DNA from: Bdellovibrio bacteriovorus
GTDB taxonomy: Bacteria > Bdellovibrionota > Bdellovibrionia > Bdellovibrionales > Bdellovibrionaceae
DNA length: 64,000 bases
Direction of reading: 5' to 3'
Assembly: GCF_001592745.1 (NCBI RefSeq)
Contig: NZ_LUKD01000001.1
Coordinates: 751,384 to 815,383, forward strand
Below the pieces are notes generated by a model. The model was not told the DNA's origin, searched no databases, and saw only the letters and a program-made list of their open reading frames with translations. Below, one piece after another: positions 40,101 to 64,000 of the stretch; the first letter of the stretch is position 1; each line of letters opens with the position of its first letter. The position numbers were made by a program, and so were the translations under genes.

Positions 40101-40882
40101 ATATCAACATCGGATGGATCGGTGAAAACAAATACGGAATTCAATCCGCAGATGAACTGACCAATCGTGATCTCTTTCTTAATCCGTTCGGAGGAAAAGT
40201 CGGCATTAACACGACGGCTTCAACTCATGCGTTGACGGTCGCGGGACAAGCTTATGTCACTGATGGAGCAGGCTTTGTAGAAATTCTTTCTCGCGCAGAT
40301 TCTGCACTTAATGTCACTAATGACAATGGATCTAAGCGTGGGTTCACTGTTCATCACAACGCGACCACCCTGCTATCGCAGTTCTATTATTGTCCCGGTG
40401 GCGCCTGTACCTCGAAGATGACTTTTGATTACAACGGCAATATGTGGATAGCTGGAACTTTAACTCAGGCTTCGGACCTGCGACTGAAAACCAATATCGC
40501 ACCTCTAGAAAATAGCTTGGATAAAATTCTTTCTTTGGAAGGCGTCAGTTATGACTGGAAAAATCCTGAAGGTCGAGGCCATCAGATCGGTCTTATCGCT
40601 CAAGATGTCGAAAAGGTTTTTCCCGAGGCGGTAGAAACCAATAAAGAAGGCTGGAAGGCCGTTGCTTATCAAAACTTAGTGGCTCCTTTGATTAATGCAA
40701 TAAAAGAACTTCATGCCTTGGTTATGACTCAAAATGGGAATCAAGATCGCGCTATTGCGTCCTTGCAAGAGTCTAACGAAGTTCTGAAAGCAGAAGTTCA
40801 AAACCTTTCAGAACAGAATCGTCTGCTGAAGGACGCCCTGTGTGAATCTCATCCTCAGTCTAAGATCTGTCAAAAAAAGTAA
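37139..40882 (+). CDS. Secreted MAT-like fibre protein 1, S74 chaperone C-terminus
   Basis: This is a 1247-residue secreted protein. A signal peptide (about 1-21) leads to a conserved head domain (about 24-155) with TYQGRI, GVFDVPIG and EIRAVPFA, shared with the three other fibres of this window. A long Gly/Thr/Ser-rich shaft of phage-tail-fibre-like repeats follows (DLSGTYPNPTVAKIQG, GTNSTTALTNN, VTAGTYTSVTVDTYGRVT). From residue 1112 (SDLRLK) comes an S74 intramolecular-chaperone domain with the Ser and Lys of the self-cleavage dyad. A coiled coil and a cysteine-bearing tail end the protein. It most resembles the mosaic adhesive trimer fibres of Bdellovibrio; prey binding is inferred. Confidence 0.82.
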   Translation: MRSGTSITFILMIFFVFSAHSSPRTFTYQGRILKSDGTPLEYNNVSFAFEITNASGNCVIYKEQRNNINMQGSGGVFDVPIGSGVKLYPTTAGYDLRTAFNNAVSHNCEGGSTYLPQEDDIRILRVQFHDGVGWKAITPNNEIRAVPFASFATSASKLGDKIADDFVLKTSVGACALGQYLTYDGTSFSCQNDAGGAGMVSDVNVTAPLTKGGTASIPSLGISVGTSAGTVAAGNDARFLNAERLRGVNVSSTLPSSGGQVLQYDGSQWGPAALGISSITGLQTALNDKVAVTMFPTSCSAGQSLVFVTPANKFDCYNIQISESQISGTISGAKISGNITGNAAGFTGNLSGDVTGAQAATVVGKIQGVDIDTTAPTAGQVLKFVGGKWTPAADIGTSNAVTNGGNATNIKVDTNANRPATGAVGDIYIASDINTTFVGSGAGWNTVGTSNLAFTSGTLPIARGGTNSTTALTNNRVMMSSGGAIVEAPALTDGQLLIGRTGNSPVAANLVAGTGVTLTNAAGSITISANGGLAPGGTAGGDLSGTYPNPTVAKIQGTSVSATAPSGTGQVLRYNGTNYAANFLSLADIRSTVTPANTIFPSSPCAADKTLNWSVLTDTFTCQNIGIADSQITYASKSAKTFLAAPTGAAGAPTFRTLASTDLPTSGVTAGTYTSVTVDTYGRVTSASNPTTASGYGITDTFVQNGNSFAAGAVLGTNNAQPLSFETNGTTRMNILSTGNIGVNVATPLSPLHVDGIFMAGENSERAISLQPDVSSGLTGAASAAQIRISEPNFDEGTAGSTFLTHESDGSTVLGNTRNNAGLSSVRFVTTPDAGSPTERMRIHSDGSVSVGSTAAPVFMTVNAGGTVAPYVPTTDRMAVIGTGNTVIQVTSPNNAAGGIYFSDPEDRDPGGISYSHLLNSMAFRVNDAINMYIDSNGYVGVGTTTPGFKFEVKGGNAQITSNTTMANTGAVGGLRIFNSQSSNAADYINIGWIGENKYGIQSADELTNRDLFLNPFGGKVGINTTASTHALTVAGQAYVTDGAGFVEILSRADSALNVTNDNGSKRGFTVHHNATTLLSQFYYCPGGACTSKMTFDYNGNMWIAGTLTQASDLRLKTNIAPLENSLDKILSLEGVSYDWKNPEGRGHQIGLIAQDVEKVFPEAVETNKEGWKAVAYQNLVAPLINAIKELHALVMTQNGNQDRAIASLQESNEVLKAEVQNLSEQNRLLKDALCESHPQSKICQKK

Positions 40883-45663: not shown

Positions 45664-46659
45664 TTAAAGAGATATCACACCCGTCCTAAGAATGTCGTTA
45701 CTGATCGTCGTGGAAATACTTTTCGAAGTAACACGAACCAGATCTGTGTAGGTATCAATCATTTTCAGAAATTGTTTTAACTCAATCTGATTTTCACAGG
45801 CACCAGGGAAGGCGTTCTTCCTTAAGTAACAGTTGTTTTGCACAGTGAAAGTTTCAATGGCAACGTTCGTTCCCTCGACATTCTTAAAGAACATTCCAAA
45901 TCCCGCGCCTACAACAGGGTTTCCGGCATTAGATTTAGGGAACTCTTGAACGGAGATCACTCTTTCATTGTTATCGAGATCAATGGAGTAAGCCTTAAAG
46001 AAAAATTTAGAAACTGATCCTTCTGTACAATTGGGCGAGTTCGGAAGACAGCAGGTAACACTCATCGTGCCATCACTGCGATGAGTGATGAAGGGACGAC
46101 GTTTCATGGCGCCTAATACGTACAGTGCGGTGATACCCGGAAACTTATTATCTATCTCAAAAGCGTTATCCGCCTCATCACATCGTGCGACCATAAGGCG
46201 TTTGGTTCTTTTTTGCATTCCACCTTGGCTTCCGGTCAGACGATGTTCTTCCAACAAAAAAGAATCAAGAATAATATCGTAAGCCGTTCCTGATATGGCT
46301 TCCGTGGCTTTTTCATACAGGTGACTTCCCTGAGCATTCTTAGCCCATTCTTGAGGATTTATAATCATTGAAGGCGCAGGTGAAACTGCATTGCTACCTA
46401 GACTCGCTGCTCCCGTATTGAGGGTTTGATAGAAAGTTGTCGGCATATTCAGACGGCTCATGTTTAAGTTTCTTGCCGAACGACGAATAAACATATCCAT
46501 TTCTTGAATTTCACTGACCACTTCTTGCTTCTTTTCAATACGCTGCATCTCTTTTACGAAGACAATCGTTGCTTGGCTTGATGCTAAAAGCAGAATGGCC
46601 ATGATGGCACTGACCACCATGACCTCAACCAATGTGAATCCCTTCTTATCCAAAATCAT
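45664..46659 (-). CDS. Prepilin-like protein (class III signal)
   Basis: This is a 331-residue protein with a textbook prepilin N-terminus: a short basic leader, then G^FTLVEVMVV with the conserved Glu5 and a hydrophobic helix (about 8-30). This is cut and methylated by the prepilin peptidase in type IV pili and type II secretion pseudopilins. The rest is a globular domain with paired cysteines (RCDEAD, TCCLPNSPNCTE and others). Such length is typical of a minor pilin. It overlaps the next upstream gene by 4 bases (ATGA), so it is the third gene of the operon. Confidence 0.85.
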   Translation of the reverse strand: MILDKKGFTLVEVMVVSAIMAILLLASSQATIVFVKEMQRIEKKQEVVSEIQEMDMFIRRSARNLNMSRLNMPTTFYQTLNTGAASLGSNAVSPAPSMIINPQEWAKNAQGSHLYEKATEAISGTAYDIILDSFLLEEHRLTGSQGGMQKRTKRLMVARCDEADNAFEIDNKFPGITALYVLGAMKRRPFITHRSDGTMSVTCCLPNSPNCTEGSVSKFFFKAYSIDLDNNERVISVQEFPKSNAGNPVVGAGFGMFFKNVEGTNVAIETFTVQNNCYLRKNAFPGACENQIELKQFLKMIDTYTDLVRVTSKSISTTISNDILRTGVISL

Positions 46660-49517: not shown

Positions 49518-49550
49518 AGATCTCCCGCACATAAACGTTCAAAAAAGAGT

Positions 49551-50849
49551 CTAGTTATCACCGTCGCCATCACCGTTCGACTGAAGGACTTCGACAGGGC
49601 GTGGTCGGACCACCATCGTTGTGACCGTCGTAGTTTCCGTGACGGACTCCTGAGGCGACGTCACTTCTATCTCAGGAAGTTGCACCCCCAGCCGCTTGGG
49701 CTCGATAACGGACAAAGTTGGATTCTTCACGAAGGTGCTTGCCACGTAGGGATTATAAGTATTTCTAAACGTAGGTTTCGTGGCTTCCATCGGTGAATAT
49801 CGAGAGACACTGATATCAAATTTTTCGTAGGAAAGACTTTTAAAGCTACTAGCCACAGTGACAGAGGTCGAAGTCGAGCTGCTTGCAGAGTCCCCTTCCA
49901 CTTCGCGACTGACCCGTTGAGTTTGGAATACGCGCACCGGCGAATAGCATTTGCGCTCAACTTCCGCGTTGAGTTTTTCCCCAGGCATGAAGACTTCTTG
50001 CTTACCCATGGCATCGACCAGCATCACGTCTTTTTCCCGATTCGGATAAATTTCGCTATTGTAGGTCGTCGTTCTTTCATACTTTAGCTTGTAGATAGCC
50101 CCTGGCCCCAAATTTGTGATGCGCACACCGATCATCGCCGATGCTCCATCTTGGGGAGCCCCCAAAGGACCGCGACATTCTGGATTGTTCGTCAGAACAC
50201 TTCCCGCTTCACATTCAAAGATGCAGGATTCTCTTCCCGTATTACTAATCACCTGCACGTCAGGAGTTCCGATAGGTCGGCGGATCGCTCCACTTTTACT
50301 GACTTCTTTGGCTCGGCCGTCTGTTCCCATGAACTGAGTCACTGCCGTCATCACAACCATAAACCGATCGTCATCCGAGAGAGAGTTAATGAATGGAATT
50401 TCGCCCACAAGAGATCTAAATGAGCTTTGTTTCGACCAATCAACAAGATCCATTTTCAATTCGGTGGTATAAACCTTCTTGTTCTCATCTTTGTTTTCCA
50501 CAACAAGAACCAAAACATCGTCCTCATGACGAACGGATTTTATATTGTACTTACTTTCAGGAATGCGCGGAGTATGGTATCCACCGCCCCAGCGGCATTT
50601 TTTTTTATTACTTCCTAAATCTTCCCAACCATCTTCGCGACACAATACCAGGTTATGAGCGACGAAATATCCGCCTAATCCCAAGGCTTTTTGATTACCT
50701 AGATTTGTCTCCCATTCAGAATAGGCGTAAGACGACCTTCTAAAGATATCCAGTCCCATCTGAGACATGGCAGCGACGCTCAATACGGAAATAACCGATA
50801 TCCCTGCGACCATTGGCAGAATGCCTGCGCCAGAGTGATTCAACTTCAC
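49551..50849 (-). CDS. Pilin-like secreted protein, first gene of operon
   Basis: This is a 432-residue protein whose N-terminus is a short basic leader (MKLNHSGAG) followed by a hydrophobic helix ILPMVAGISVISVLSVAAM. This resembles a class III prepilin signal (cleavage after Gly9) but lacks the usual Glu5, as in some PilX-like minor pilins. The C-terminal part is unstructured and rich in Val/Thr/Pro, and the last third contains CIFECEAGS and CRGPLG cysteines. It is the first gene of the operon; a GCCGATAA site lies about 55 bases upstream. Confidence 0.65.
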   Translation of the reverse strand: MKLNHSGAGILPMVAGISVISVLSVAAMSQMGLDIFRRSSYAYSEWETNLGNQKALGLGGYFVAHNLVLCREDGWEDLGSNKKKCRWGGGYHTPRIPESKYNIKSVRHEDDVLVLVVENKDENKKVYTTELKMDLVDWSKQSSFRSLVGEIPFINSLSDDDRFMVVMTAVTQFMGTDGRAKEVSKSGAIRRPIGTPDVQVISNTGRESCIFECEAGSVLTNNPECRGPLGAPQDGASAMIGVRITNLGPGAIYKLKYERTTTYNSEIYPNREKDVMLVDAMGKQEVFMPGEKLNAEVERKCYSPVRVFQTQRVSREVEGDSASSSTSTSVTVASSFKSLSYEKFDISVSRYSPMEATKPTFRNTYNPYVASTFVKNPTLSVIEPKRLGVQLPEIEVTSPQESVTETTTVTTMVVRPRPVEVLQSNGDGDGDN

Positions 50850-50904
50850 AAAAACCTCCGACCGAAACGCACAAATGAAGCATTTTAATGTTGATTCCCC
50901 AAAT

Positions 50905-50912
50905 TTATCGGC
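50905..50912 (-). promoter_or_regulatory. Sigma-28-like -10 site before pilin operon
   Basis: The minus strand reads GCCGATAA here, an exact match to the sigma-28 -10 element, ending 55 bases before the start of the first pilin-like gene. The expected -35 region reads TTATTCGC, a poor match to TAAAGTTT, so the site is supported by its -10 and its position only. Confidence 0.4.
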
Positions 50913-51065
50913 AATTTTTCGCGGCGAATAAACCCTAGGTGCATTACGATGTGTGGCTTAAATTTTTTTTGACTTCGCGTACTGCTTCAAAAGAAGACGA
51001 CGTTCCAGAATTTTTAAAACTGCGTAATATAACCGTCTCACTCATAAAAATGATTTGCTTTTAAC

Positions 51066-51401
51066 TCAGTAGAACTGATCTTCGTTCTCGACTTGCAAGA
51101 TGGCGCGAAAACCGTGGCGGCCCGCTATCGCCGTCACTAGATGGCGAAGGCAGTTGATAGTTCTACCTCCACTTCCCAAAACCCGGCCGAAGTTATCTTG
51201 ATCTGTTTTTATGTAATAGACGGTGGTCTGTTCCCCCACGGAGTATCTAAGACCTACACTATTCGGATCGCTGGCAATTTCTTTAAGTGCCAATTCGACA
51301 ATGCGCTGAATGTTTTCTCGCGCGATATTGAACCTTTCTGAAGATCCGTCTTCCATCTTCCGCACTTTAATCACCGCCACTTGCTTTCTTAGCGAACTCA
51401 T
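51066..51401 (-). CDS. KH-domain RNA-binding protein (KhpA-like)
   Basis: This is a 111-residue protein. The C-terminal part (about 66-105) matches the KH domain of the KhpA/YlqC group, with the GxxG loop GSGG (76-79) in FGRVLGSGGRTINCLRHLV. These proteins bind RNA and in other bacteria work with KhpB in post-transcriptional control. About 65 residues precede the KH domain, more than in KhpA, which is usually about 75-80 residues in all. It diverges from a TIGR02147-type regulator and follows a 216-base region with no gene. Confidence 0.8.
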   Translation of the reverse strand: MSSLRKQVAVIKVRKMEDGSSERFNIARENIQRIVELALKEIASDPNSVGLRYSVGEQTTVYYIKTDQDNFGRVLGSGGRTINCLRHLVTAIAGRHGFRAILQVENEDQFY

Positions 51402-51526
51402 TCCTTGGCCCCTTTTGTGACATAGTTCTTCATCTCTTGTGAAATGTCTTTAGCCGAGCTTAAGTTACTGTGTCGGACTCGACTGTATGCCCACAGATTC
51501 AAAAACTGCGACCATGCGAGGAGCAG

Positions 51527-52279
51527 ATGAACGAACTTTCAAAAATCCTGATTCGCGAGTTTGAAATGAAGCGCCAGCGAAATCTCAAATTTTCACTAAG
51601 GGCTTTTGCTAAGTTTTTGAAAACAGATGCCAGCAATCTTTCAAAGATCCTTCGTGGTGAGAGAATTCCTTCTGCTAGCTTTGCTTTGGAGCTTCTTCAA
51701 CGACTGAACATCAATACGGATGAAAGAAACATAGTCTTGAAATCACTTGTCGAAACTAAAAGTCATCTTAAAGAAGAAAAGAAAGAAAGGTCGAAAAATC
51801 TAGAACACAAAATCGTGGCGTCTTGTCATTGGCTTCACCTTATTTTACTGGAGCTCTCGCAAATAATGATTTTAACGCCAAATCAGCTTGAAAAGATCAG
51901 CCGAATTTTGAATGTCTCTTTGTATGAAGTTAAGGTGGCCTACGAGGAATTGGCAAGATGGGACTTATTAAATGAAGATGGTATCGATAATTATAGTACG
52001 ATGTGTGGGCCCATAACTGCGGAAAATCTTCGCGCGATTCAAAGACAATTTTTAAAGATGGCTGTGGATGCCATGGAAATCTACGACCTGACAGAACGGG
52101 AAAACACGACACTGACTTTCTCGATTCCCAAGGCGCACATTCCCGAAGTAAAAGAGATCTTAAAAAAGACTCGCGATCGGATCAATCGTTTATCCAACAT
52201 GAAGAAAAATCAGAAAAGCTGCATCTACAATATTTCTATGGCCCTTTATCCCGTCTGTGATAGCGCTGATCTATCCTAA
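51527..52279 (+). CDS. TIGR02147-family DNA-binding regulator
   Basis: This is a 250-residue protein. The N-terminal helix-turn-helix is LKFSLRAFAKFLKTDASNLS followed by KILRGERIP, typical of the TIGR02147 family, which is expanded in Bdellovibrio and Fibrobacter. The C-terminal half is helical and ends with a hydrophobic strand region. The start is uncertain: ATG 51527 follows AGGAG closely (3-base spacing) and matches the family's usual N-terminus; GTG 51470 adds 19 residues. It lies 100 bases upstream of fibre gene 2 in the same direction, so control of the fibre cluster is possible but inferred. Confidence 0.78.
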   Translation: MNELSKILIREFEMKRQRNLKFSLRAFAKFLKTDASNLSKILRGERIPSASFALELLQRLNINTDERNIVLKSLVETKSHLKEEKKERSKNLEHKIVASCHWLHLILLELSQIMILTPNQLEKISRILNVSLYEVKVAYEELARWDLLNEDGIDNYSTMCGPITAENLRAIQRQFLKMAVDAMEIYDLTERENTTLTFSIPKAHIPEVKEILKKTRDRINRLSNMKKNQKSCIYNISMALYPVCDSADLS

Positions 52280-52364
52280 GTTGTATCAAGTTGAAACAGT
52301 TTTCGTAAAAAGTATTACGTTCTGTCTATAATTCCGCTTTTCACTCGGACTTTCTTGTTAAGAA

Positions 52365-52372
52365 TCCGATAA
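52365..52372 (+). promoter_or_regulatory. Sigma-28-like -10 site of fibre gene 2
   Basis: TCCGATAA ends 7 bases before the ATG at 52380, as in fibre gene 1, and the block GTTAAGAATCCGATAAG is identical to that gene. A clear TAAA -35 is not seen at the expected distance (it reads CGGACTTT, which keeps the TTT end). Confidence 0.5.
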
Positions 52373-52379
52373 GAAGAAT

Positions 52380-55300
52380 ATGAAACACGGAACGTATCTT
52401 GTCTTGATTCATGTTTTTCTAGCATCCCTAGGAAGCTTCGCCGCTCCTAATCTTCTGACATATCAAGGCCGCATCGTGAAAGCGGACGGTTCCGCCCTTG
52501 AGTACAATAACGTCAGCTTTTTATTTGAAATCACTAACAACACCGGCGCCTGCGTGATCTATCGAGAGCAGAAAAACGGAATCAACATGACGAACAGTCA
52601 TGGTGTTTTCGATGTTCCAATTGGTGCCGGTACAAAACTTTTCCCTTCTTCACCGACGAAAACTCTTTTGAATGCGTTTAATAACAGTACGACTCACGAT
52701 TGTGCAGATGCTGATAACAATGTTGCGGGCTCTTATACACCCGCTGTCGGACACACGCGTCTTTTGCGCGTTCAGTTTCACGACGGAACAGGTTGGAAGG
52801 TCATCAGCCCGGATAATGAGATTCGCTCTGTTCCCTTTGCGGCCTACTCTCAATCCGCTGAAAAGCTTGGCGACTTAGGCGCCAATGACTTCATCGTAAA
52901 AACAGGCATTCCTTCTTGTAATACGGGTGAATTTTTAACTTGGAATGGAACCGCTTTAACTTGTGGCGCGGTTTCTGGAGCCAGTGGTGGAACGGTCACC
53001 AATGTCACATCGGCCAACTCTTATCTCACAGTGACTAACAACACATCCACGCCCCTTCTTACACTGAACGTGGGTACCACTGCTAACACCGTCGCTGCCG
53101 GAAATGATCCGCGTTTGTCAGACTCTCGTCCCCCGAATGGCGCCGCAACCGGTGATTTAAGTGGAAACTATCCAAATCCTACAGTGGCAAAAATTCAAAA
53201 TGTGGCAGTCGCGACGGCGGCGCCGACAACGGGGCAGTTTTTTAAGTTCGATGGTGCCCAATGGGCGGCTTCAGCCATTGCGATTTCTGATGTTACAAAC
53301 TTGAATTCCACATTCTCTAATTATCACACCACCGCGGCCTTCAATGCCGCTGTCGGAAGTGCGAACTGCGCCGCTTACCAAACTCCTTACTGGAATTCGG
53401 TTTCGGGCTCTTTTCAGTGCCAAGCGATCAACGTATCCGTCGCTGGCGATGTCAGTGGAAGTATTGGTGCCGTATCGGTTAATAAAATTAAAGGTGTCGA
53501 TGTTGATACGACCGGATTGTCTTCAGGACAAGTTTTAAAATACGACGGAACGAAGTGGGCGCCTGGAAATGACAGTAACGCCGGTGGTACAGTTACAAAT
53601 ATCACAACCGGCACGGGTCTTAGCGGTGGTCCGATCACTTCGACGGGAACTATTTCTTTGGCAAATACGACGGTGACAGCAGGTTCTTATACGCGCGCCA
53701 ATATTACGGTGGACGCTCAAGGTCGTTTGACTGCCGCAAGCAATGGCTCGGCCGTGAATCTTGCCACGGATATCACTGGAACTCTTCCAATTGCAAACGG
53801 CGGTACTGGCCAAACAAATGCGACAGAGGCCTTCAACGCGCTTTCTCCCCTGACAACAAAGGGCGATATTGTCGTGAACGACGGAACCAATGACATTCGT
53901 CTTCCAGTAGGTACGAATGGACAAGTTCTTTCCGCAAACTCGGCCCAGGCCTCGGGCTTACAATGGGTGACTCCCACGAATGGAACTGTCACCAATGTTT
54001 CAGGTACAGCACCTATTTCGGTTTCATCCGGCTCAACAACTCCTTCAATTTCAATCGCGGATGCGACGACCTCAGCAAAAGGGGCTGTTCAAGTAGGAGC
54101 TGGTATCGCAGTCACCTCAGGGACTATCAGTGCTGATCCCGCAAACTTTCCTTCAGCGGTGCCCGTTGCTAAAGGCGGTACGGGTGCCACTTCGTTAACG
54201 GCAAATAGACTTCTTGCTTCCAATGGAAGCGGCAGCGCGATCACCGCATTTAACTGCGCGACGGGACAGCTTCTTACTTTTGATGCGACAGGTATGATGA
54301 CTTGTACATCTTTTGCAAATGCATCGGTGTTTGTGAATGGCGGAAACTCTTTCGCAGCGGCAGGAACTTTGGGAACGAATGACTCCAATGCATTGAATTT
54401 AGAAACGAACAATGCGGTTCGACTTACAATCAGTGCTGCGGGTGACCTCGCCGTCAATACGACGGTCGACACAAATGCAAAACTCAAGATCCGTTCTGGA
54501 TCGGCGACTCAAGCCCCTCTGAGTTTAGACAGTCCGGCCTCAGGTATTCCTAGCATTGATTTTCTTCGCAATGGAACTTGGAAGGGAACTTTCGGGTTTA
54601 CAAATGGTGCGGGCGACGAACTTTATGTCTCTAACGGTGTTAACGGGCCGGTGATCTTTGATACGAATAACGACGAAAAAATGCGCATTCAAGCTGATGG
54701 TAAAGTTGGCATCGGTTCTAGTGGCCCAGGGGCTCTCTTGCAAGTCGGAGCTTGGGATGCGCAGGCGACTTACAACAGTATATTCGTTGGAAGTTATCAC
54801 AATACTTTGGGGCAAGCTCAGTTCGTTGGTAACTGGAACAGCACGGGATATTGGGGTATTGGTCCTGCGACAAATCCGGCTAACGGTGTTGTGCGTATCG
54901 GTAATGCGAATACAGCCGGCGACTGGAGAGCCACTCAAGATTTGGCGCTTCAAGTGCCCGGAAGAATTGGTCTTGGTCCTACGGTCACAGCTCCTGAAAG
55001 GGTGTTGCATATCAAAGGAACTGGCGGGCTTGACGATGATCTTTATATTCAATCGCAGCACAGTGCGAGTGGCGAAGGTTCTGTGATTATCACGCGCGCG
55101 CGCGATTCTGCGGGAGCTCCTGCCGCCGTTCTTGCTAATGACAGTTTGGGATTTCTGGCGATCCGTGGTTACGATGGATCTGCCTATGTACAAGCAGCAA
55201 GCATTAACGCCTACGCGGCATCTGACTTTGCGACTTCAAAATCATCAACGATGATTTTCAGTACAATAGCTTCGGGAACGTCTGCTGAAAGAATGAGAAT

Positions 55301-55967
55301 TCATTCTGACGGAAATGTTGGGATTGGAACCACGGCACCTACAGGACACCTTACAGTCTCCTCTGCGGCGGCCTATACGATGATCTATAATACCAACACC
55401 TCCGCCGGCGGCCAGGCGTGGCGATGGCTTTCCTCTTCTACCGCCGCTCCTCTTGGCGCCAATGCTATGTGCTTCGCACTCGGCGCCTGTTATTTTAGTT
55501 TATATGCTTCAGGTAACGCCACCCTCTCTGGCACCCTCACTCAAGCTTCAGATGTTCGTCTTAAAAACGATATCCAACCAATCCTTAATGCCTTGGATCG
55601 AATCACAAATATTCACGGCGTGACTTATCAATGGATCGACAAAAATAAAGACCAGACAAAACAAATGGGTCTTATCGCGCAAGAAGTGGAAGCTGTTTTC
55701 CCTGAGGTCGTGAAAACGGACAGCAAGGGATTTAAATCGGTCGCTTATCAAAATCTTGTTGCTCCGATCATCGAAGCCATTAAGGAGTTGAACCATAGAT
55801 GGTCTTCAGATTCGGAAGTCATTCATAAAGAATTAGTCGCGCAAAAACGAGAGATCGCTTCCCTCAAAGAAGAAAACGAAAAACTCAAAACGCAAGTTGA
55901 AGAAATCTCTTCGATCAAAAAAGCCTTGTGCAAGCAGGATAAGAGTCTCGACTTTTGTAAAAAATAA
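52380..55967 (+). CDS. Secreted MAT-like fibre protein 2, S74 chaperone C-terminus
   Basis: This is an 1195-residue secreted fibre with a signal peptide (about 1-20), the shared head (LTYQGRI, GVFDVPIG, EIRSVPFA) and a shaft of tail-fibre-like modules: DLSGNYPNPTVAKIQN, TGTGLSGGPITSTGTISL, LPIANGGTGQ, KGAVQVGAGIAV, GGTGATSLTANRLLASN. From residue 1057 (SDVRLK) an S74 chaperone domain follows, then a coiled coil and two cysteines near the end, very like fibre 1. The head and shaft are closest to fibre 3. A terminator follows. It is probably a trimeric, surface-exposed adhesin; host range and ligand cannot be read from the sequence. Confidence 0.83.
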   Translation: MKHGTYLVLIHVFLASLGSFAAPNLLTYQGRIVKADGSALEYNNVSFLFEITNNTGACVIYREQKNGINMTNSHGVFDVPIGAGTKLFPSSPTKTLLNAFNNSTTHDCADADNNVAGSYTPAVGHTRLLRVQFHDGTGWKVISPDNEIRSVPFAAYSQSAEKLGDLGANDFIVKTGIPSCNTGEFLTWNGTALTCGAVSGASGGTVTNVTSANSYLTVTNNTSTPLLTLNVGTTANTVAAGNDPRLSDSRPPNGAATGDLSGNYPNPTVAKIQNVAVATAAPTTGQFFKFDGAQWAASAIAISDVTNLNSTFSNYHTTAAFNAAVGSANCAAYQTPYWNSVSGSFQCQAINVSVAGDVSGSIGAVSVNKIKGVDVDTTGLSSGQVLKYDGTKWAPGNDSNAGGTVTNITTGTGLSGGPITSTGTISLANTTVTAGSYTRANITVDAQGRLTAASNGSAVNLATDITGTLPIANGGTGQTNATEAFNALSPLTTKGDIVVNDGTNDIRLPVGTNGQVLSANSAQASGLQWVTPTNGTVTNVSGTAPISVSSGSTTPSISIADATTSAKGAVQVGAGIAVTSGTISADPANFPSAVPVAKGGTGATSLTANRLLASNGSGSAITAFNCATGQLLTFDATGMMTCTSFANASVFVNGGNSFAAAGTLGTNDSNALNLETNNAVRLTISAAGDLAVNTTVDTNAKLKIRSGSATQAPLSLDSPASGIPSIDFLRNGTWKGTFGFTNGAGDELYVSNGVNGPVIFDTNNDEKMRIQADGKVGIGSSGPGALLQVGAWDAQATYNSIFVGSYHNTLGQAQFVGNWNSTGYWGIGPATNPANGVVRIGNANTAGDWRATQDLALQVPGRIGLGPTVTAPERVLHIKGTGGLDDDLYIQSQHSASGEGSVIITRARDSAGAPAAVLANDSLGFLAIRGYDGSAYVQAASINAYAASDFATSKSSTMIFSTIASGTSAERMRIHSDGNVGIGTTAPTGHLTVSSAAAYTMIYNTNTSAGGQAWRWLSSSTAAPLGANAMCFALGACYFSLYASGNATLSGTLTQASDVRLKNDIQPILNALDRITNIHGVTYQWIDKNKDQTKQMGLIAQEVEAVFPEVVKTDSKGFKSVAYQNLVAPIIEAIKELNHRWSSDSEVIHKELVAQKREIASLKEENEKLKTQVEEISSIKKALCKQDKSLDFCKK
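53583..54430 (+). repeat. Fibre shaft module, copy in fibre gene 2
   Basis: This stretch encodes TGTGLSGGP through LETNN and is closely matched, in order, by 57648-58500 in fibre gene 3. The encoded proteins are nearly the same over about 280 residues. A shorter related copy is at 57277-57450. Long similar DNA in neighbouring genes could recombine. Confidence 0.8.
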
Positions 55968-55988
55968 CTCACAGAAGTTCGCTAAACT

Positions 55989-56013
55989 GTGTCTCACTTC
56001 GAGACACTTTTTC
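55989..56013 (+). terminator. Rho-independent terminator after fibre gene 2
   Basis: GTGTCTC (55989-55995) and GAGACAC (56001-56007) form a 7-bp stem with a 5-base loop, followed by TTTTTCT. It separates fibre genes 2 and 3. Confidence 0.8.
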
Positions 56014-56073
56014 TAAATCGCGCTTACATTCGAATAATTCTGGCCCAAAGACCTTCGAAATAGTTGTTAAGAT

Positions 56074-56081
56074 TCCGATAA
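56074..56081 (+). promoter_or_regulatory. Sigma-28-like -10 site of fibre gene 3
   Basis: TCCGATAA ends 7 bases before the ATG at 56089, the same position as in fibre genes 1 and 2. GTTAAGATTCCGATAAG differs from theirs at one base. Confidence 0.5.
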
Positions 56082-56088
56082 GATAGGT

Positions 56089-59000
56089 ATGAGAACCGGT
56101 ACGTCGCTTATTCTATTTCTCGTTTTCTTCGCCATGCATGCAGCTGAAGCTGCTCCTGCGCTGTTCACTTATCAAGGACGTATCTTAAAAGCCGATGGTC
56201 AGGCCTTAGAGCACAACTCTGTCAGTTTTATTTTTGAAGTCACCAACCCTAATGGCACTTGCGTTATTTATCGCGAACAAAAAGACGGCATCAATATGGT
56301 GAATTCTAAAGGCGTCTTTGACGTGCCCATCGGTTCGGGCACAAAACTATTTCCAGCCGATCCGTTTTATTCCCTCTTAGACGCTTTCAATAACGCCAAG
56401 ACACATGACTGCGTTGGTGGCGCAACTTACTCGGCTTTATCCGGAGACATTCGCCTTCTTAAGGTGCAGTTTCATGATGGCAGCGGTTGGAAAGTCATTT
56501 CTCCCTCAAATGAAATTCGCACGGTTCCTTTTTCAGCTTATGCTCACTCGTCTGAAAGATTGGGCACTAAAACTGAAAATGATTTCTTCGTAAAAACAGG
56601 ATTACCCGCCTGTTCTGCCGGAGAATTCTTAAGCTGGGATGGAACTGCTCTGGGATGTGCGCCAGTATCAGGAGCCAGTGGCGGTACCGTCACAAACGTG
56701 ACTTCTGCCAACGCTTACATCACGGTTACTAGTGGGACTTCTACACCGCAATTGACTTTGAATGTGGGCACTGGAGCAGGCACCGTGGCTGCGGGAAATG
56801 ATTCGCGCTTGAGTGATGCACGTACTCCAACCGGAGCTGCCAGTGGAGATCTTAGCGGAACCTATCCAAATCCCTCCGTTGCCAAAATTCAGAATGTGAC
56901 GATCGCCAATGCCGCGCCTTCAGCGAATCAGTTTTTTAAGTTTGATGGATCACAGTGGATAGGATCCGCCATCGCTATTTCAGATGTTACAAACTTAAGC
57001 GCCACACTCGCGACTTACAAAACGAATGCTTCATTTAATACGGCAGTGGGCAGCGCGAACTGTGCGGCTCACCAAACTCCTTATTGGAATTCAGTGTCTA
57101 GTTCTTTTCAATGTCAGGCGATCAATGTTTCTGTTGCCGGAGACGTTAGCGGAACAATCGGCGCCGTTTCGGTTAATAAAATCAAAGGTGTTGATGTCGA
57201 TACAACAGGCTTAATATCTGGCCAAGTTTTAAAATACGATGGAACAAAGTGGGCTCCAGCTAATGATAGCAACGCTGGTGGAACCGTTACGAATATTGCA
57301 ACGGGCACAGGTCTTAGTGGCGGACCTATTACCACGACGGGAACTATTTCGCTTGCGAACACCGCAGTCACAGCGGGATCTTACGGTTCGACGACCCAAG
57401 TGGGAACTTTCACTGTGGATGCTCAAGGACGCTTAACTGCTGCAAGCAATACAGCAATCGCATTCCCCGTCACTTCTGTCGCAACAAAAACGGGAGCCGT
57501 CACTCTTGATTATGGTGACATTAATAGCGCCGCTTCAAAATATCTGACTTATCGTCCTAACAATGTCGCCTGTACCGACGGTCAAACTTTGAAATGGGTG
57601 ACGGCGAATTTACGCTGGGAATGTGCGAACGATACGGATACATCAAGTGGCGGAACCGTTACCAATATCGCCACAGGCACGGGCCTAAGTGGTGGTCCGA
57701 TTACTTCCACGGGAACTATTTCGCTTGCAAACACGGCAGTGACCGCGGGTTCTTATACTCGCGCAAATATCACTGTCGATGCCCAAGGCCGTTTAACTTC
57801 GGCAACAAATGGCGCCGCAATCAATCTTGCAACTGAAGTCACAGGCACCCTCCCTATTGCTAACGGCGGTACGGGACAAACTTCAGCAACAGCCGCTTTT
57901 AACGTTCTTTCTCCTCTGACAACCAAGGGTGATCTTGTTGTTAACGATGGCACAAATGATATTCGTCTGCCAGCAGGCACCAATGGACAAGTTCTTTCTG
58001 CAAACTCGGCACAAGCATCAGGCTTACAATGGGTGACACCTACTAATGGAACTGTGACCAGCGTTTCAGGAACAGCCCCTATCGCCGTCGCAACGGGAAC
58101 TTCAACGCCTGTTATTTCTATTAGTGATGCAACAACGAGTGCAAAAGGTGCCGTGCAAGTAGGCGCGGGTATTGCGGTCTCTAGTGGTACTATCAGTGCC
58201 GACCCAGCCAATTTTCCAACGGCAGTTCCCGTTTCCAAAGGCGGCACGGGAGCTACATCACTGACTGCGAATAGGCTGCTTGCATCGAATGGAACCGGAT
58301 CCGCTGTCACGGCATTTAACTGTGCGGTCGGACAGCTTTTAACATTCGATGGTACGGGAATGATGACGTGTACATCGTTTGCGAATGGCTCTGTGTTTGT
58401 AAATGGAGGCAACTCTTTTGCGGGTACAGCAACATTGGGAACGAACGATGCCAATTCACTTGTACTAGAAACTAACAACACCGCTCGAGTAACAATTCTA
58501 TCGGGTGGAAATGTCGGTATCAAAGAATCTGCTCCCGCAGGAAATTTGCACATCACTGACGCCGCGGGTGCAGACATTCGCTTACAAGACAATAACGCCA
58601 CGACCCCTGCGGCCCTCCGCATACTTTCAGAAGGTGGTGTAAACTACATCGAATCCGGTGCAAACTTCACCTCGGGTTCCGCGGCGGATCTTCACTTCAC
58701 GGATATGATGGGACAAAAACGTTGGATGACGGTTAAAGCCAATGGTTGGGTGGGTATCGGTGATACGACACCGTCCTCTCAACTAGAGGTCACAAGTGCA
58801 AGTACAAATCCTACCGTCGTTGCTCGCTTTAATATGCTTCCTGCGCCCACGGCCGATGTTGCAGGAAATCTGCACGGCTCATGGTCATCCATTACTCCAA
58901 ACAATGCCTTCAATTATACAGGCTCACTTTACGCGGCTGTGAACCGTGTTGAAACGGGAACAAGTCAAACAGGCTCTATCAATAGCGCTGTTGGTATGAC

Positions 59001-60219
59001 CGCAGATGTTTACAACAGATCTGCAGCAACATTCGGTACAGCAACGGGTGTTTATGGAGCTGTTTTAAATACTTCAACTGGTTCAATCTCTGCCGCAAGA
59101 GCTGGATATTTTACGGTAACAAACACTGGCGGTGGAACGCTCAACACTGGGTATGGCGTCTACATTGATGGCATCGCAGGCACATCCAAATACGGCCTGT
59201 ATCAGGCTGATGCTGGAGCAAACAATTACTTTGCTGGGAAATTGGGCGTCAACACGAATGCCCCTCTGGGCAACCTTCATATCGGAAGCACAGGAACTGG
59301 TGCTTTCGCCTACTCTTCCTTTCAGATGGGAAATGATGCCACGGCCACTCACAACTTTCATTGGGCGAACGAATACACGAATGGAGCGCGGTCACTGCGT
59401 CTCTATAACGGGAATCTGGGCTCAGGCACACCGTTAATGTCCGTGAATGCGGCTGGCGGAGTCACGATGGGTGAAGGAACTGGTGGCGCTGGACTTCTTA
59501 CGTTGAAACCAGGAAATATCGATCACGTTTACTTACAGTTGTTTGCGCGCACAGCATCGCCGAATACACGCTCCGCATGGATCGGTTACGGCGCAAGCGC
59601 GACGGTTGACCTTTCGATTACGAATGAGCTTGAAGGCGGCCAAATCTATTTCAACACAAAATCAGGCGGCGCTCAAAGTGCGCGAATTATCTTCGCTGCT
59701 GACGGAACGGCTTACAAACCTGGCGGTGGATCTTGGGCCGCTACTTCCGACGCTCGTCTTAAAACAGATATCAAAGATTTCAATCCGGGGCTCGAAGATC
59801 TTCTTAAAGTTCATCCGGTTAGCTTCCGCTACAACGGCAAAGGTGGGACTGTCGACGACGGTAAACACTATATCGGGGTTCTTGCACAGGAATTAGCTCC
59901 GATTGCTCCTTATATGATTCAAAAAGAAAAAGCGAAAATCAATAAGACGGACAAAGAAGAATCGGAAATTTATAAAGTGGATCCTTCTGCATTCACATAC
60001 ATGATTATCAACTCGATTAAAGAGCTTTCACAAAAGCTCTCCTCGTTCGAGAACAAAGTGAAATCCTGGTTCAACAATCATGAAGATCGTCTGCAGCGCC
60101 TAGAAAACCAGATGGTTTTATTGCAAAAGCAAAATGAAGAATTGAAAAGACAGAACGAAGAGCTTGTGAAGCATTTGAAGTCTCAAGGTGAGACACGTGC
60201 TCCGGCCTCTTCACAGTAA
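56089..60219 (+). CDS. Secreted MAT-like fibre protein 3, S74 chaperone C-terminus
   Basis: This is a 1376-residue secreted fibre. It has a signal peptide (about 1-21), the shared head with LFTYQGRI and EIRTVPFS, and a shaft very like that of fibre 2 but with one extra module (about residues 397-520) that duplicates TGTGLSGGP. Before the C-terminus it has a YGVYIDGIAGT block that also occurs in fibre 4. The S74 domain starts at residue 1220 (SDARLK) and differs from those of fibres 1 and 2; a coiled coil ends the protein. The mixed relationships suggest a mosaic built by recombination. Confidence 0.83.
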   Translation: MRTGTSLILFLVFFAMHAAEAAPALFTYQGRILKADGQALEHNSVSFIFEVTNPNGTCVIYREQKDGINMVNSKGVFDVPIGSGTKLFPADPFYSLLDAFNNAKTHDCVGGATYSALSGDIRLLKVQFHDGSGWKVISPSNEIRTVPFSAYAHSSERLGTKTENDFFVKTGLPACSAGEFLSWDGTALGCAPVSGASGGTVTNVTSANAYITVTSGTSTPQLTLNVGTGAGTVAAGNDSRLSDARTPTGAASGDLSGTYPNPSVAKIQNVTIANAAPSANQFFKFDGSQWIGSAIAISDVTNLSATLATYKTNASFNTAVGSANCAAHQTPYWNSVSSSFQCQAINVSVAGDVSGTIGAVSVNKIKGVDVDTTGLISGQVLKYDGTKWAPANDSNAGGTVTNIATGTGLSGGPITTTGTISLANTAVTAGSYGSTTQVGTFTVDAQGRLTAASNTAIAFPVTSVATKTGAVTLDYGDINSAASKYLTYRPNNVACTDGQTLKWVTANLRWECANDTDTSSGGTVTNIATGTGLSGGPITSTGTISLANTAVTAGSYTRANITVDAQGRLTSATNGAAINLATEVTGTLPIANGGTGQTSATAAFNVLSPLTTKGDLVVNDGTNDIRLPAGTNGQVLSANSAQASGLQWVTPTNGTVTSVSGTAPIAVATGTSTPVISISDATTSAKGAVQVGAGIAVSSGTISADPANFPTAVPVSKGGTGATSLTANRLLASNGTGSAVTAFNCAVGQLLTFDGTGMMTCTSFANGSVFVNGGNSFAGTATLGTNDANSLVLETNNTARVTILSGGNVGIKESAPAGNLHITDAAGADIRLQDNNATTPAALRILSEGGVNYIESGANFTSGSAADLHFTDMMGQKRWMTVKANGWVGIGDTTPSSQLEVTSASTNPTVVARFNMLPAPTADVAGNLHGSWSSITPNNAFNYTGSLYAAVNRVETGTSQTGSINSAVGMTADVYNRSAATFGTATGVYGAVLNTSTGSISAARAGYFTVTNTGGGTLNTGYGVYIDGIAGTSKYGLYQADAGANNYFAGKLGVNTNAPLGNLHIGSTGTGAFAYSSFQMGNDATATHNFHWANEYTNGARSLRLYNGNLGSGTPLMSVNAAGGVTMGEGTGGAGLLTLKPGNIDHVYLQLFARTASPNTRSAWIGYGASATVDLSITNELEGGQIYFNTKSGGAQSARIIFAADGTAYKPGGGSWAATSDARLKTDIKDFNPGLEDLLKVHPVSFRYNGKGGTVDDGKHYIGVLAQELAPIAPYMIQKEKAKINKTDKEESEIYKVDPSAFTYMIINSIKELSQKLSSFENKVKSWFNNHEDRLQRLENQMVLLQKQNEELKRQNEELVKHLKSQGETRAPASSQ
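57277..57450 (+). repeat. Extra shaft module inside fibre gene 3
   Basis: This copy of the TGTGLSGGP-to-DAQGRLT unit is repeated at 57648 onward in the same gene, about 371 bases away. Fibre gene 2 has only one copy, so an in-gene duplication or insertion is likely. Confidence 0.75.
57648..58500 (+). repeat. Fibre shaft module, copy in fibre gene 3
   Basis: This matches 53583-54430 in fibre gene 2 along its whole length at the protein level, with shared motifs TLPIANGGTGQ, GAVQVGAGIAV and GGTGATSLTANRLLASNG. Confidence 0.8.
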
Positions 60220-60243
60220 GTGCTTAGGAAAACATCAAATTCA

Positions 60244-60251
60244 ACCGATAA
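60244..60251 (+). promoter_or_regulatory. Sigma-28-like -10 site of lipoprotein gene
   Basis: ACCGATAA (6-7 of 8 to GCCGATAA) lies 21 bases before the GTG start of the small lipoprotein, so unlike the fibre genes a short leader with a good CGGAGG Shine-Dalgarno (60261-60266) would be present. Confidence 0.45.
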
Positions 60252-60272
60252 GTATGAAGTCGGAGGTTGTAC

Positions 60273-60560
60273 GTGAAAAAACTAATTCTGCTCTCGCTAG
60301 TAGTATTGGCTACGGGTTGTTCGATGGAAGCCTCCTTAGAGCAATTGGCGAAGGAAGTTCCGACCATTAAGTTTCAAGATCCTGCAAAAACAACGGGCTT
60401 GGTTTCTGGTTCTACACAGACGGGAACTGCGTCCGGTGGCGGTGTCACTTATCACGTGCAAAGCACAGTCGGTAACTACATGTCAGGAATCGAACAAACC
60501 ACTTCAGACAACTCTTACAAGGTTTATAGCTCCGTTCAAGGGGCGATCGTTTCTAACTAA
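60273..60560 (+). CDS. Small lipoprotein between fibre genes
   Basis: This is a 95-residue protein with GTG start (60273), CGGAGG just upstream, and a lipobox LATGC (about residues 12-16), so the mature lipoprotein is about 80 residues, mostly Gly/Ser/Thr/Val with no cysteine besides the lipid one. The family is not recognised. It is sandwiched between fibre genes 3 and 4 in the same direction with a sigma-28-like site upstream, which suggests it anchors or assists a fibre; this is inference. It has its own terminator. Confidence 0.72.
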   Translation: MKKLILLSLVVLATGCSMEASLEQLAKEVPTIKFQDPAKTTGLVSGSTQTGTASGGGVTYHVQSTVGNYMSGIEQTTSDNSYKVYSSVQGAIVSN

Positions 60561-60588
60561 TTTATTATCTTTACTGTAAGTTGGCGAC

Positions 60589-60622
60589 AAATCTCCTCTG
60601 TATCAAGAGGAGATTTTTTATT
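60589..60622 (+). terminator. Rho-independent terminator after lipoprotein gene
   Basis: An 11-bp stem (AAATCTCCTCT at 60589-60599, AGAGGAGATTT at 60606-60616) has a 6-base loop and is followed by T-rich sequence. Confidence 0.9.
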
Positions 60623-60691
60623 TATTAACATAGTAGTTCCTTACTGTTAGCGCTCTTGCGTTCTTGTAACATACAAAATCCCTCACAATAA

Positions 60692-60699
60692 ACCGATAA
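60692..60699 (+). promoter_or_regulatory. Sigma-28-like -10 site of fibre gene 4
   Basis: ACCGATAA ends 8 bases before the ATG at 60708. Upstream, TACAAAAT (60672-60679) sits at the -35 distance (12-base spacer) and equals the -35-position sequence of fibre gene 1. Confidence 0.5.
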
Positions 60700-60707
60700 G
60701 TCTTTAT

Positions 60708-62792
60708 ATGAAAATCTTGAGCGTTCTGGTTTTTTTCATGTCTCTATTAGGGGCTGCAACGACTCACGCAGTTCCAGGGTCTCTAACTTATCAGGGAAGA
60801 ATCAAAAATTCCGACGGACTTCCGCTGGAAGTTAATGGCGTTCGCTTTGAATTTTCTATCACGAATCCTTCGGGCTCTTGCGTACTCTATAAAGAAATAT
60901 CTTCGTCCATTGACATGCGCAATTCTTCCGGAGTCTTTGACGTGCCTATCGGAACAGGCACAAAAAATTATCCCGTCGATCCAGGATTTAAGCTCTTAGA
61001 TGCCTTCAATAATGCAGCGGCTTTGAATTGTGAAGGTGGAGGAACCTACACTCCTATCGCCGATGACAAAAGGCTTTTAAGAGTCCAATTCTATGATGGC
61101 ACAGGTTGGAAGCTCATCAGTCCCGACAGCGAAATCCGCAGTGTTCCATTTGCAGGCCATGCGCAGTACGCTGAGTCCGCGCAAAAACTAGGTTCAAATA
61201 CAGTCGCTGACTTTATTTTAAAATCCAGTGTGCCTCTTTGTGGCGCTGGCGAATATCTTCGACATATTGCGCCCGCTGGCACATTTCAATGCACAGTTCC
61301 CGTTGTGAATGGAAATGACGTCAGCGGAAATATTTCCGGTAGTTCCGCGGGCTTTACTGGAAATTTAAGCGGCGATGTCTCGGGAACTCAAAGTGCGACA
61401 AGCGTTGATAAAATCAAAGGCATCGCCGTTAATATGACGGGCCTGGCTTCTGGAAAAATTCTTAAATACAACGGAACAAATTGGGCGCCTGCAGATGACA
61501 CGGATACTAACACTGACGATAAAATCCGCGGTGTCGATGTTTCTGCAACCACACCGGTCAGTGGACAAGTTTTAGTTCACAACGGATCAGCGTGGGCTCC
61601 TCAATATTTCGGCATGGGGCAATTACGATCGACGGTTACGGGCACAGCGCAAGTTCCGGCATCGTGTTCAACTGCTGATAAAACTCTGACTTGGAATTCA
61701 ATCACAGACTCATTTGCTTGTACCACGATTGCAATCGCGAGCACTCAAGTAACAGGCCTTGGAACAGCGGCTACGAAAAACTTCGGAACCTCTTCCGGAA
61801 ATCTTGTAGAGCTTGATGGCACCGGAAGAATTCCGGCCTCACTTCTCCCTGCTTCTAGCGGAAACATCATAGATGGAGGCAACAGCACGGGCGCCACTTT
61901 GAACGTCGGCACCAACGACGGGCAAGCGCTGAATTTCGAGACCAACAATTCGGCACGAATGACTATCACGAGTAACGGAGATATTGGTATTGGCACAGCC
62001 TCCCCCGGCTATAGACTTCAGGTAAATAAAACCTCCAATGCGACGGCTGCCAGCAATATCGCTGCTTCTTTTAATTTCATGTGGGCAGCACCAACTAGTT
62101 CCAGCGCTAGTACTTTTGTCGGTCAGTATAACGGCGCTGAAAGTGACGGCACGTCGGCAGCTATCACTGGCGGTATTTTAGCGCAGATCAACTACACTCA
62201 CCACAACGGTTCAAATGCTTTAGCTAAACTCGTGGGCTCCTGGTCCGGTACTCACAATAAATCTTCGGCAACGGTGGGATCCTCACTGGCAGTTCAGGGT
62301 GAAGTGAACAATGACGCTTCGGGAGTTATTTCACAAGCAATAGGAATTCACTCGCGCATTACGAACAGCGGCAGCGGCTCGATCACGAATGCTTATGGAG
62401 TGTACGTTGATGGAGTGCAAGGGACGAACAAGTGGTCCATTTATACGAATGATCCTTCAGTGCCATCGTACTTTGCCGGTTATGTTGGTATCGGAACGAA
62501 CTCTCCAACAGCTCCACTGGATGTCAATGGAACGGTAAAGGCCACTAAGTTTTCGGTGGGTCCACAGATTGTCACCGCGACTTGCAGTAATAGCGCTGCA
62601 GCCTCTTGTATGGCCATCGCCACGTGTCCCGCGGGAAAAACACTTCTGTCAGGAGGTTATTCAACCTCTTGGGCGGCCACCAGTGTTGTTCAGTCTGCCC
62701 CCTCTTCAGGGACTACCTGGTCCTGCCAGTTTTACGGCGACAGCGCCCTCGGTCCGCATACCTGCTACGCCCTTTGCGCCAATTTCGAGTAA
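60708..62792 (+). CDS. Secreted MAT-like fibre protein 4, non-S74 C-terminus
   Basis: This is a 694-residue secreted fibre with a signal peptide (about 1-20) and the shared head (LTYQGRI, GVFDVPIG, EIRSVPFA). The shaft is shorter and includes a YGVYVDGVQGT block like fibre 3. Unlike the other three it has no S74 chaperone: the last 80 residues form a cysteine-rich domain with TCSNSAAASC, TCPAGKTLLSGGY and CYALCANFE. Similar CPAGK...GGG...CA endings occur in secreted and phage-tail-like proteins of actinobacteria and myxobacteria. How it trimerises without S74 is unclear. Confidence 0.8.
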   Translation: MKILSVLVFFMSLLGAATTHAVPGSLTYQGRIKNSDGLPLEVNGVRFEFSITNPSGSCVLYKEISSSIDMRNSSGVFDVPIGTGTKNYPVDPGFKLLDAFNNAAALNCEGGGTYTPIADDKRLLRVQFYDGTGWKLISPDSEIRSVPFAGHAQYAESAQKLGSNTVADFILKSSVPLCGAGEYLRHIAPAGTFQCTVPVVNGNDVSGNISGSSAGFTGNLSGDVSGTQSATSVDKIKGIAVNMTGLASGKILKYNGTNWAPADDTDTNTDDKIRGVDVSATTPVSGQVLVHNGSAWAPQYFGMGQLRSTVTGTAQVPASCSTADKTLTWNSITDSFACTTIAIASTQVTGLGTAATKNFGTSSGNLVELDGTGRIPASLLPASSGNIIDGGNSTGATLNVGTNDGQALNFETNNSARMTITSNGDIGIGTASPGYRLQVNKTSNATAASNIAASFNFMWAAPTSSSASTFVGQYNGAESDGTSAAITGGILAQINYTHHNGSNALAKLVGSWSGTHNKSSATVGSSLAVQGEVNNDASGVISQAIGIHSRITNSGSGSITNAYGVYVDGVQGTNKWSIYTNDPSVPSYFAGYVGIGTNSPTAPLDVNGTVKATKFSVGPQIVTATCSNSAAASCMAIATCPAGKTLLSGGYSTSWAATSVVQSAPSSGTTWSCQFYGDSALGPHTCYALCANFE

Positions 62793-62855
62793 GAAAGAAT
62801 TATGAGCGATCGCTAAACTCAAGTCGAGTCGGTGCCGCTATTTCTGCAACAGACC

Positions 62856-62883
62856 TTAAGTTTCATTTTAAGACAGCCGATAA
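62856..62883 (+). promoter_or_regulatory. Near-consensus sigma-28 promoter
   Basis: TTAAGTTT (62856-62863) and an exact GCCGATAA (62876-62883) are separated by 12 bases, against the sigma-28 consensus TAAAGTTT-N11-GCCGATAA. This is the best sigma-28 site in the window. It would start transcription about 25 bases before the ATG of the next gene. Confidence 0.75.
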
Positions 62884-62915
62884 AGCTTTTAGACAAACCA
62901 TGGAAGGGTTTTCTT

Positions 62916-63629
62916 ATGAAGTTTATAACTTTAATTCTGCTTCTTGCCGGTTTCACGATGAAATCTCAAGCCGCCGATATCACCATCGTCGATGTTCGTC
63001 GCAATATCACGATGTCTGAAGATGACACCGTTTACAAAGACTTCTACATCAATGCAGGTCCCTCTTCAGGATTAAAAAAGAATCTTGTCGTCACGGCCGT
63101 TCGCAAACTCAATATTCGTGATGCCAGTGGTGCCAACGCTGTCGGTGAAATCACCGTGCCGGTGGGCCAGCTAAAAATCATCGCCGTTTACGACAAAGTC
63201 GCGGTCGCGCGCGAGTACACTCTTTTATCTCGTGATGAACTTCCGATGCTTGAGCAAGTAGGGATGATGACCGGAGACCGCATAGATCTTCAAGGCTCAT
63301 TCATTGATAATTCTAAGCCCAAACCAAAACGCAAAGTAGCCGAAGCCTCTAGCGAAACGACCGCAACAACGGCCACGGTGGTTTCACTCACCGTCGCCCC
63401 TTCAGCCGCTGGTTTAAGCACAGGGGCAGGAGCCCTTTCCCCTACCCCGGCCTCCCCCGCGGGAGCGAACCCTGTAGTTTCTGCCAATTTAAAAGCGGAT
63501 AGTATCCTTTCTGCCGCAACTAATAGCAGTTCAGCCCCTGCCGCCCCTGCGGCTGCGGCATCCTCGGCTACCGCCGGGGAAACCCTTGAAAAAACGGCGG
63601 ATTCTGGTAACAACACTCTTCATGAGTGA
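62916..63629 (+). CDS. Secreted protein under sigma-28-type promoter, FlgT-C-like pattern
   Basis: This is a 237-residue protein from ATG 62916 with a signal peptide (about 1-19). The mature N-terminal half (to about residue 115) is beta-rich, with KNLVVTAVRKL, VGEITVPVGQLKI and YDKVAVAREY; the pattern resembles the C-terminal beta domain of the flagellar protein FlgT, which would suit the promoter, but this is only a similarity by eye. The C-terminal half is low-complexity Ala/Ser/Pro/Thr. The frame from 62832 is longer but unlikely. It overlaps the start of prmA by 8 bases. Confidence 0.72.
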   Translation: MKFITLILLLAGFTMKSQAADITIVDVRRNITMSEDDTVYKDFYINAGPSSGLKKNLVVTAVRKLNIRDASGANAVGEITVPVGQLKIIAVYDKVAVAREYTLLSRDELPMLEQVGMMTGDRIDLQGSFIDNSKPKPKRKVAEASSETTATTATVVSLTVAPSAAGLSTGAGALSPTPASPAGANPVVSANLKADSILSAATNSSSAPAAPAAAASSATAGETLEKTADSGNNTLHE

Positions 63630-64000
63630 CAATTCTTATTTCCGCGTCCGCCTAAGCCAAGTACCAGCAGAGCTGGAAGACATCATCACCACGCATAGTT
63701 TTGAATGTGGAGCCTCTGGAGTGACAGAGGCTTTGGCTTTTATTCAACCAGATCTTACCTACGACCCTAAACTTCTTCACGTCCGCTCTCACGAAGTCGA
63801 TGTGTTCTTCCCTGAAAAACCGGCACAAAATTTCTTTGATGGCCTTCTAGATATCAACGGTGGCATCAAATGGAATATTTTCGAAGAAGAAAACAAAGAC
63901 TGGCTGGAGGAGTGGAAAAAAGGTTTTAAACCTTTCAAGCTCGTCGGTGATTTCTGGGTTGTTCCAAGCTGGTTGCAACCTCCTGAAGAATGCAAACACG
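63622..64000 (+). CDS. prmA: Ribosomal protein L11 methyltransferase (partial)
   Basis: PrmA methylates ribosomal protein L11 using S-adenosylmethionine. About 126 residues are in the window, running off its right end. The N-terminal L11-recognition domain is recognised from VRLSQVPAEL, FECGASGVTE, and DWLEEWKKGFKPFKLVGDFWVVPSW, a PrmA signature that ends just before the SAM domain. The ATG lies inside the end of the preceding gene, in another frame. Confidence 0.9.
   Translation, partial: MSDNSYFRVRLSQVPAELEDIITTHSFECGASGVTEALAFIQPDLTYDPKLLHVRSHEVDVFFPEKPAQNFFDGLLDINGGIKWNIFEEENKDWLEEWKKGFKPFKLVGDFWVVPSWLQPPEECKH

Follow-up and report, generated by a model that had tools for sequence, protein, structure and literature searches.

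A predicted resistin/PCSK9/APC-beta-like tip on a Bdellovibrio MAT fibre without an S74 chaperone

Our analysis of a 64,000-nucleotide window of the Bdellovibrio bacteriovorus genome suggests that the fourth of its fibre genes, fibre 4, encodes a mosaic adhesive trimer (MAT) fibre of the non-S74 type whose tip is disulphide-stabilised, trimeric and adhesive, and was gained by module exchange. We give this reading a probability of roughly 0.7. MATs that lack S74 and bear other tips have already been published (PMC10769870), so the general explanation of the missing chaperone is not new; what is new, relative to the parts of that paper available to us, is the particular tip.

Fibre 4 (60708-62792, 694 aa; like all fibre features given here, on the forward strand) is annotated as a MAT family gene without S74 (NS74) and is the shortest of the four fibre genes. 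A signal peptide read by eye (MKILSVLVFFMSLLGAATTHA, residues 1-21, 60708-60770) leads into the conserved beta-rich MAT N-terminal domain (residues 12-173, 60741-61226; NCBIfam NF053851, 226.7 bits against a cut-off of 60 bits, E 1.3e-67), and the same model also matches fibres 1, 2 and 3. At the start of the distal shaft (residues 401-447, 61908-62048), phmmer finds similarity to the beta-helix shafts solved for Bd3182 (E 3.4e-5) and Bd2133 (E 8.6e-5). A capping-loop-like motif, YVGIGTNSPTAPLDV (residues 592-606, 62481-62525), matches in sequence the VGxxxxxPxxxL consensus described in PMC10769870. The chain ends in the tip domain (residues 612-694, 62541-62789; resistin/PCSK9-module/APC-beta-like), with cysteines at 626, 634, 640, 673, 686 and 690. 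These are 6 of the 12 cysteines of the protein, a clustering in the last 83 aa with a hypergeometric P of 0.0013, in keeping with the cysteine-rich end of about 80 residues noticed in an earlier, sequence-only reading of this DNA. Pfam PF13884 places S74 chaperones in fibre 1 (residues 1112-1165, 40472-40633), fibre 2 (residues 1057-1112, 55548-55715) and fibre 3 (residues 1220-1274, 59746-59910), with SDxRLK at exactly the positions given in that reading (1112, 1057 and 1220), whereas fibre 4 has neither a PF13884 match nor an SDxxxK motif; the claimed difference between fibre 4 and its neighbours is thus borne out. The same reading had raised a frameshift or a disordered tail as possible objections. 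A frameshift or truncation is excluded by an ORF open across all 694 aa, by in-frame homology of the tail to the tails of other fibres and by flanking DNA that matches a sister species on both sides. Disorder is excluded by a tip model confidently predicted as folded (pLDDT 86.9).

Several other ORFs lie close to the fibre cluster. Between fibres 3 and 4 a 95-aa ORF with a GTG start (60273-60560, forward strand) opens with a lipobox-like sequence, MKKLILLSLVVLATGCSME, and is likely a small lipoprotein; it was too short to enter the ORF list. Directly before fibre 2 lies a regulator-like ORF of the DASNLSKILRGERIPS type (51470-52279); the end of a similar ORF adjoins another MAT locus (L034), and at a further locus (L052) an ORF lies upstream of its MAT, so MAT genes may travel with a dedicated regulator. 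Three consecutive ORFs with prepilin-like N-termini (GFTLVEVMVVSAIMAILL, GFSVIEGVIAAGIVALS and a third, more distant) occupy the reverse strand beside the cluster (45664-50849); at 958 and 432 aa, two of these ORFs are of unusual length.

On sequence grounds, the assignment of fibre 4 to the known MAT family, and within it to the known non-S74 class, is well supported. The N-terminal domain behind the signal peptide, the beta-helical shaft with its capping motif, the other C-terminal tip in the position of S74, and a conserved N-terminal part combined with exchanged tips are all found at this locus; the Peptidase_S74 domain with SDxxxK that ends chaperone-terminated fibres is not. The genome holding fibre 4 carries 23 MAT genes, 7 of which end without S74 (L041, L052 and L056, which have SDRRFK or SDQRFK, being counted as S74 MATs). 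For comparison, among the 21 MATs of B. bacteriovorus HD100, Caulton and colleagues counted 13 that carry S74 and 8 that lack it (PMC10769870). The non-S74 tips solved in that work are TNF-like, C-type lectin and two new beta-sandwiches; non-S74 tips fold independently, which may aid tip swapping, and the non-S74 MAT Bd2439 binds glycan (PMC10769870). The lack of S74 and the presence of a distinct tip are therefore ordinary within the MAT family. Elsewhere in the genus, proteins related to the N-terminal half of fibre 4 (73-78% across some 245 aa for the relatives read) finish variously with S74, a different cysteine-rich tip or other beta tips. Non-S74 MATs of the fibre 4 genome (L048, L049) and of the genus (L149, L151, L152) carry a second class of cysteine-rich tip (TVCSY...ECDNGxPsgnC...YxCD/N); by eye it is unrelated to the fibre 4 tip, and it matched no PDB sequence.

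The fibre 4 tip itself belongs to a domain that no Pfam or NCBIfam model covers. Searches of Pfam, NCBIfam, PHROGs and PDB sequences with the fibre 4 tip returned nothing useful, and the early weak matches were mostly antisense or chance frames. A tip profile run against relatives at the order and phylum level recovered the domain in several other genera, where it terminates long fibre-like frames in those instances that were read. Its signature comprises CPAGK, a GG turn, W/YxC and a terminal YAxC, and the two cysteines of CPAGK and YAxC are invariant among the relatives. In fibre 4 the second family cysteine is replaced by tyrosine (GGY) and an extra cysteine is found in HTC, so that fibre 4 may have a set of disulphides different from the one in G059 and G052; two members of a more distant family of the phylum (L103 and L105) likewise have a cysteine at the HTC position (TCYA). 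The wider relatives include secreted proteins of Saccharothrix and Kribbella, as well as viral-catalogue contigs (L112, L117, L129 and L118, cut short) in which a collagen-like GPQGPAG stretch precedes the domain. Many pattern matches in viral contigs arose by chance, and our alignment A2 was too diverse for pattern scans. In profile-profile comparisons the predator tips matched the three-copy forms described below with 96.7% probability and the collagen-borne forms with 97.3%. A tblastn search for tip relatives in named phages and plasmids found none. In L103 the domain sits on a fibre shaft matching Pfam Shufflon_N, the PilV constant region. A reverse-strand gene of another genus (L107) encodes a prepilin-like protein ending in the same domain (CPxGxxvxGG). 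The tip domain may thus occur on pilus-type proteins too.

Structure prediction provides the clearest clue to the nature of this domain. The fibre 4 model, for which the alignment included nine relatives, is a two-layer module of six beta strands (pTM 0.74). A structural second look placed modules of the PCSK9 C-terminal domain on top (Z 9.7-8.3; 2.1 A over 72 residues for 8fpq_B), followed by resistin (Z 7.2, 2.5 A over 61 residues, 18% identity) and RELM-beta (Z 7.1), so that the six-strand module scores Z 9.7-7.1 to PCSK9 and resistin. APC-beta of apicomplexan perforins scored Z 5.0-5.8, with other folds starting from Z 4.8. Foldseek on the tip ranked the same proteins first, with a weak E of 0.16. 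A three-copy relative (L121), modelled at a low pLDDT of 56, gave an alignment across the full PCSK9 C-terminal domain (Z 14.8; 198 residues at 3.5 A), and all 30 of its Foldseek matches below 1e-3 were PCSK9 or APC-beta. A sequence profile of the three-copy proteins reached Toxoplasma gondii APC-beta (E 0.0023) without any use of structure. Both APC-beta and the PCSK9 domain are described as beta-prisms built in two layers, which are pseudo-three-fold in symmetry and have their layers joined by disulphides (PMC6294395). As modelled, a resistin/PCSK9-C-terminal/APC-beta fold for the fibre 4 tip is well supported, and the model points to what looks like a link with this eukaryotic fold group. 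Set against the solved tips in the parts of PMC10769870 available to us, the modelled tip also looks like a new fold class among MAT fibres.

The copy number of the domain offers a clue to its assembly. Four secreted or phage-encoded proteins (L109 and L111, which are close relatives, L110 and L121) carry exactly three copies per chain, each with one CPAGK-type and one final cysteine. In single-copy chains the domain is mostly borne by a trimer-forming part, either collagen-like sequence or the shaft of a MAT. In the resistin homotrimer each chain contributes one such head, and the heads cap a coiled coil. Three copies in single chains and one copy on trimer-forming chains thus make a trimeric head likely, and the simplest reading would be a three-module head, the modules coming either from a single chain or from three chains. 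The two-copy, lipoprotein-like L106 and the prepilin-borne L107 are misfits to a strict rule of three. We infer that the fibre 4 tip is such a trimer, within which C640 and C690 would be the most likely disulphide pair. Among the weakest links of the argument is the small size of the domain. The sequence-only reading had offered another route of trimerisation or a binding tip as alternatives; the present data point to both at once, in a tip that would fold by itself and probably trimerise as well.

Comparison with related genomes indicates how the tip may have reached the locus. The sister species G001 matches the window unbroken over 48739-62525 (87.3%) and again over 62801-64000 (90.4%), leaving a forward-strand segment of 275 bp (62526-62800) without a match. 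In its place G001 has 551 bp that encode an additional shaft module together with a tip from another subgroup. The left border falls on the last base of the capping-loop motif (62525), that is, at the end of the conserved VGIGTNSPTAPLDV motif; 59 of the 60 bases before it are identical to G001, while further upstream identity is 22-27 of 30. In the more distant G007 a G001-type tip sits on a still longer shaft, and in both species the fibre 4 orthologue also lacks S74. In the tip tree (85 columns, some long branches) the G001 and G007 tips group with tips of two other genera (95/96), and the AU test rejects trees in which the three tips of this locus form one clade (p 0.0087). Against G001, dN 0.023 and dS 0.488 show purifying selection on the fibre body; the fibre 4 and G001 tips differ at dN 0.95. 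A tip exchange at the fibre 4 locus is therefore well supported by the sequence comparison, and the parsimonious history would be a recent gain by fibre 4. Within the genome of fibre 4 we found neither a second tip copy nor, allowing up to 3 mismatches, another copy of the 41-bp border motif that could mark a recombination partner, so the tip donor was not found. The extra G001 shaft module (GGSAYFTRSQNDAWGSNFVVRKDRAG, L090 13756-13990) recurs in a MAT-like fibre of G020 (L098, GGSAFFTRSQNDQWGS), again between VGIGTxxP motifs, which indicates that shaft modules are shuffled too.

Taken together, we propose that the conserved N-terminal domain would anchor fibre 4 at the predator surface, and that the beta-rich shaft would trimerise along its length and carry the tip outward. 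The last 83 residues are predicted to fold independently as a compact, disulphide-stabilised head, with one head per chain probably packing into a three-fold cap; this cap would close the fibre and offer a putative prey-binding surface, by which it would bind a ligand on prey. An S74 chaperone would not be needed, since the proposed tip folds on its own and caps the fibre. The head probably entered the locus by recombination at the conserved VGIGT capping-loop motif.

The most serious rival, although we hold it to be improbable, is that the tail is a passive trimerisation clamp that sets the register and caps the fibre as a foldon does, the binding surface lying on the beta-helix shaft or being absent. 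Such a clamp would fit a domain found on trimers as unrelated as MAT shafts and collagen-like chains, and the heads of resistin do cap a coiled coil; but tips that are exchanged and so highly diverged beside a conserved body suit a recognition surface better, and four other, solved non-S74 tips have adhesive or pocket-bearing folds (PMC10769870). Less probable still is a small beta-sandwich that merely resembles the resistin and PCSK9 modules and forms one monomeric, lectin-like knob per chain. Middling structural scores are indeed common for small beta-sandwiches, and the weak Foldseek result on the tip could be taken in the same sense. However, PCSK9, resistin and APC-beta rank clearly ahead of the folds that come next, the entire three-module PCSK9 domain is recovered with the three-copy relative, and APC-beta was reached by sequence profile.

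That fibre 4 is a decayed or truncated S74 fibre with an out-of-frame or random end we regard as very improbable. Its gene is the shortest of the four and the replaced segment is half the length of that in the sister species, as decay might leave it; yet the tail consists of a conserved domain that recurs on fibre ends across several genera, is homologous in its own frame and is predicted to fold, and neither orthologue has S74. We thus prefer the non-S74 fibre with an exchanged adhesive head.

If so, the tips through which predatory bacteria may recognise their prey gain a further candidate fold. The locus also shows a tip exchange caught between two close species, with its left border at an exact base. 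A widespread, unnamed bacterial domain would be tied to the resistin, PCSK9 and APC-beta fold, and its occurrence yields a rule that can be tested, namely single copies on trimers and three in any chain that stands alone. More tentatively, and with somewhat less than even confidence, we put forward that the tip is a member of a bacterial family of trimeric recognition heads not described so far. This family would be homologous to the modules of resistin, PCSK9 and APC-beta and form their bacterial counterpart, and the tip would be shuffled among the fibres of predators, PilV-like fibres, collagen-like proteins and proteins with three copies in one chain.

In relation to known systems, fibre 4 shares with the S74 ends of phages and neighbouring MATs the position at the fibre end, the shaft type and neighbouring paralogues, but not the Peptidase_S74 domain or its SDxxxK. 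Its predicted head has the fold and, presumably, the disulphide richness of resistin and RELM, probably also with one head per chain of a trimer; it differs in having six cysteines where resistin has a larger set, a beta fibre in place of a coiled coil, and no hormone context. The Pfam Resistin model (PF06954) has no match in fibre 4, and its E of 0.41 in the relative L110 is far below the cut-off. With the PCSK9 C-terminal (Cys-His-rich) domain the likeness lies in the module fold and in the bacterial relatives with three modules per chain, whereas fibre 4 contributes a single module per chain, is only about 12% identical and has no protease. The three-copy relatives resemble APC-beta, a three-fold double-layered beta-prism with CPxG repeats, by sequence profile; that domain, however, binds membranes within a pore former, and fibre 4 lacks any pore-forming part. 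As far as the available parts of PMC10769870 describe them, the solved non-S74 MAT tips have folds that differ from the one predicted here, but in its N-terminal domain, shaft type, capping-loop motif, substitution of a tip for S74 and mosaic tip exchange, fibre 4 resembles the non-S74 Bdellovibrio MATs.
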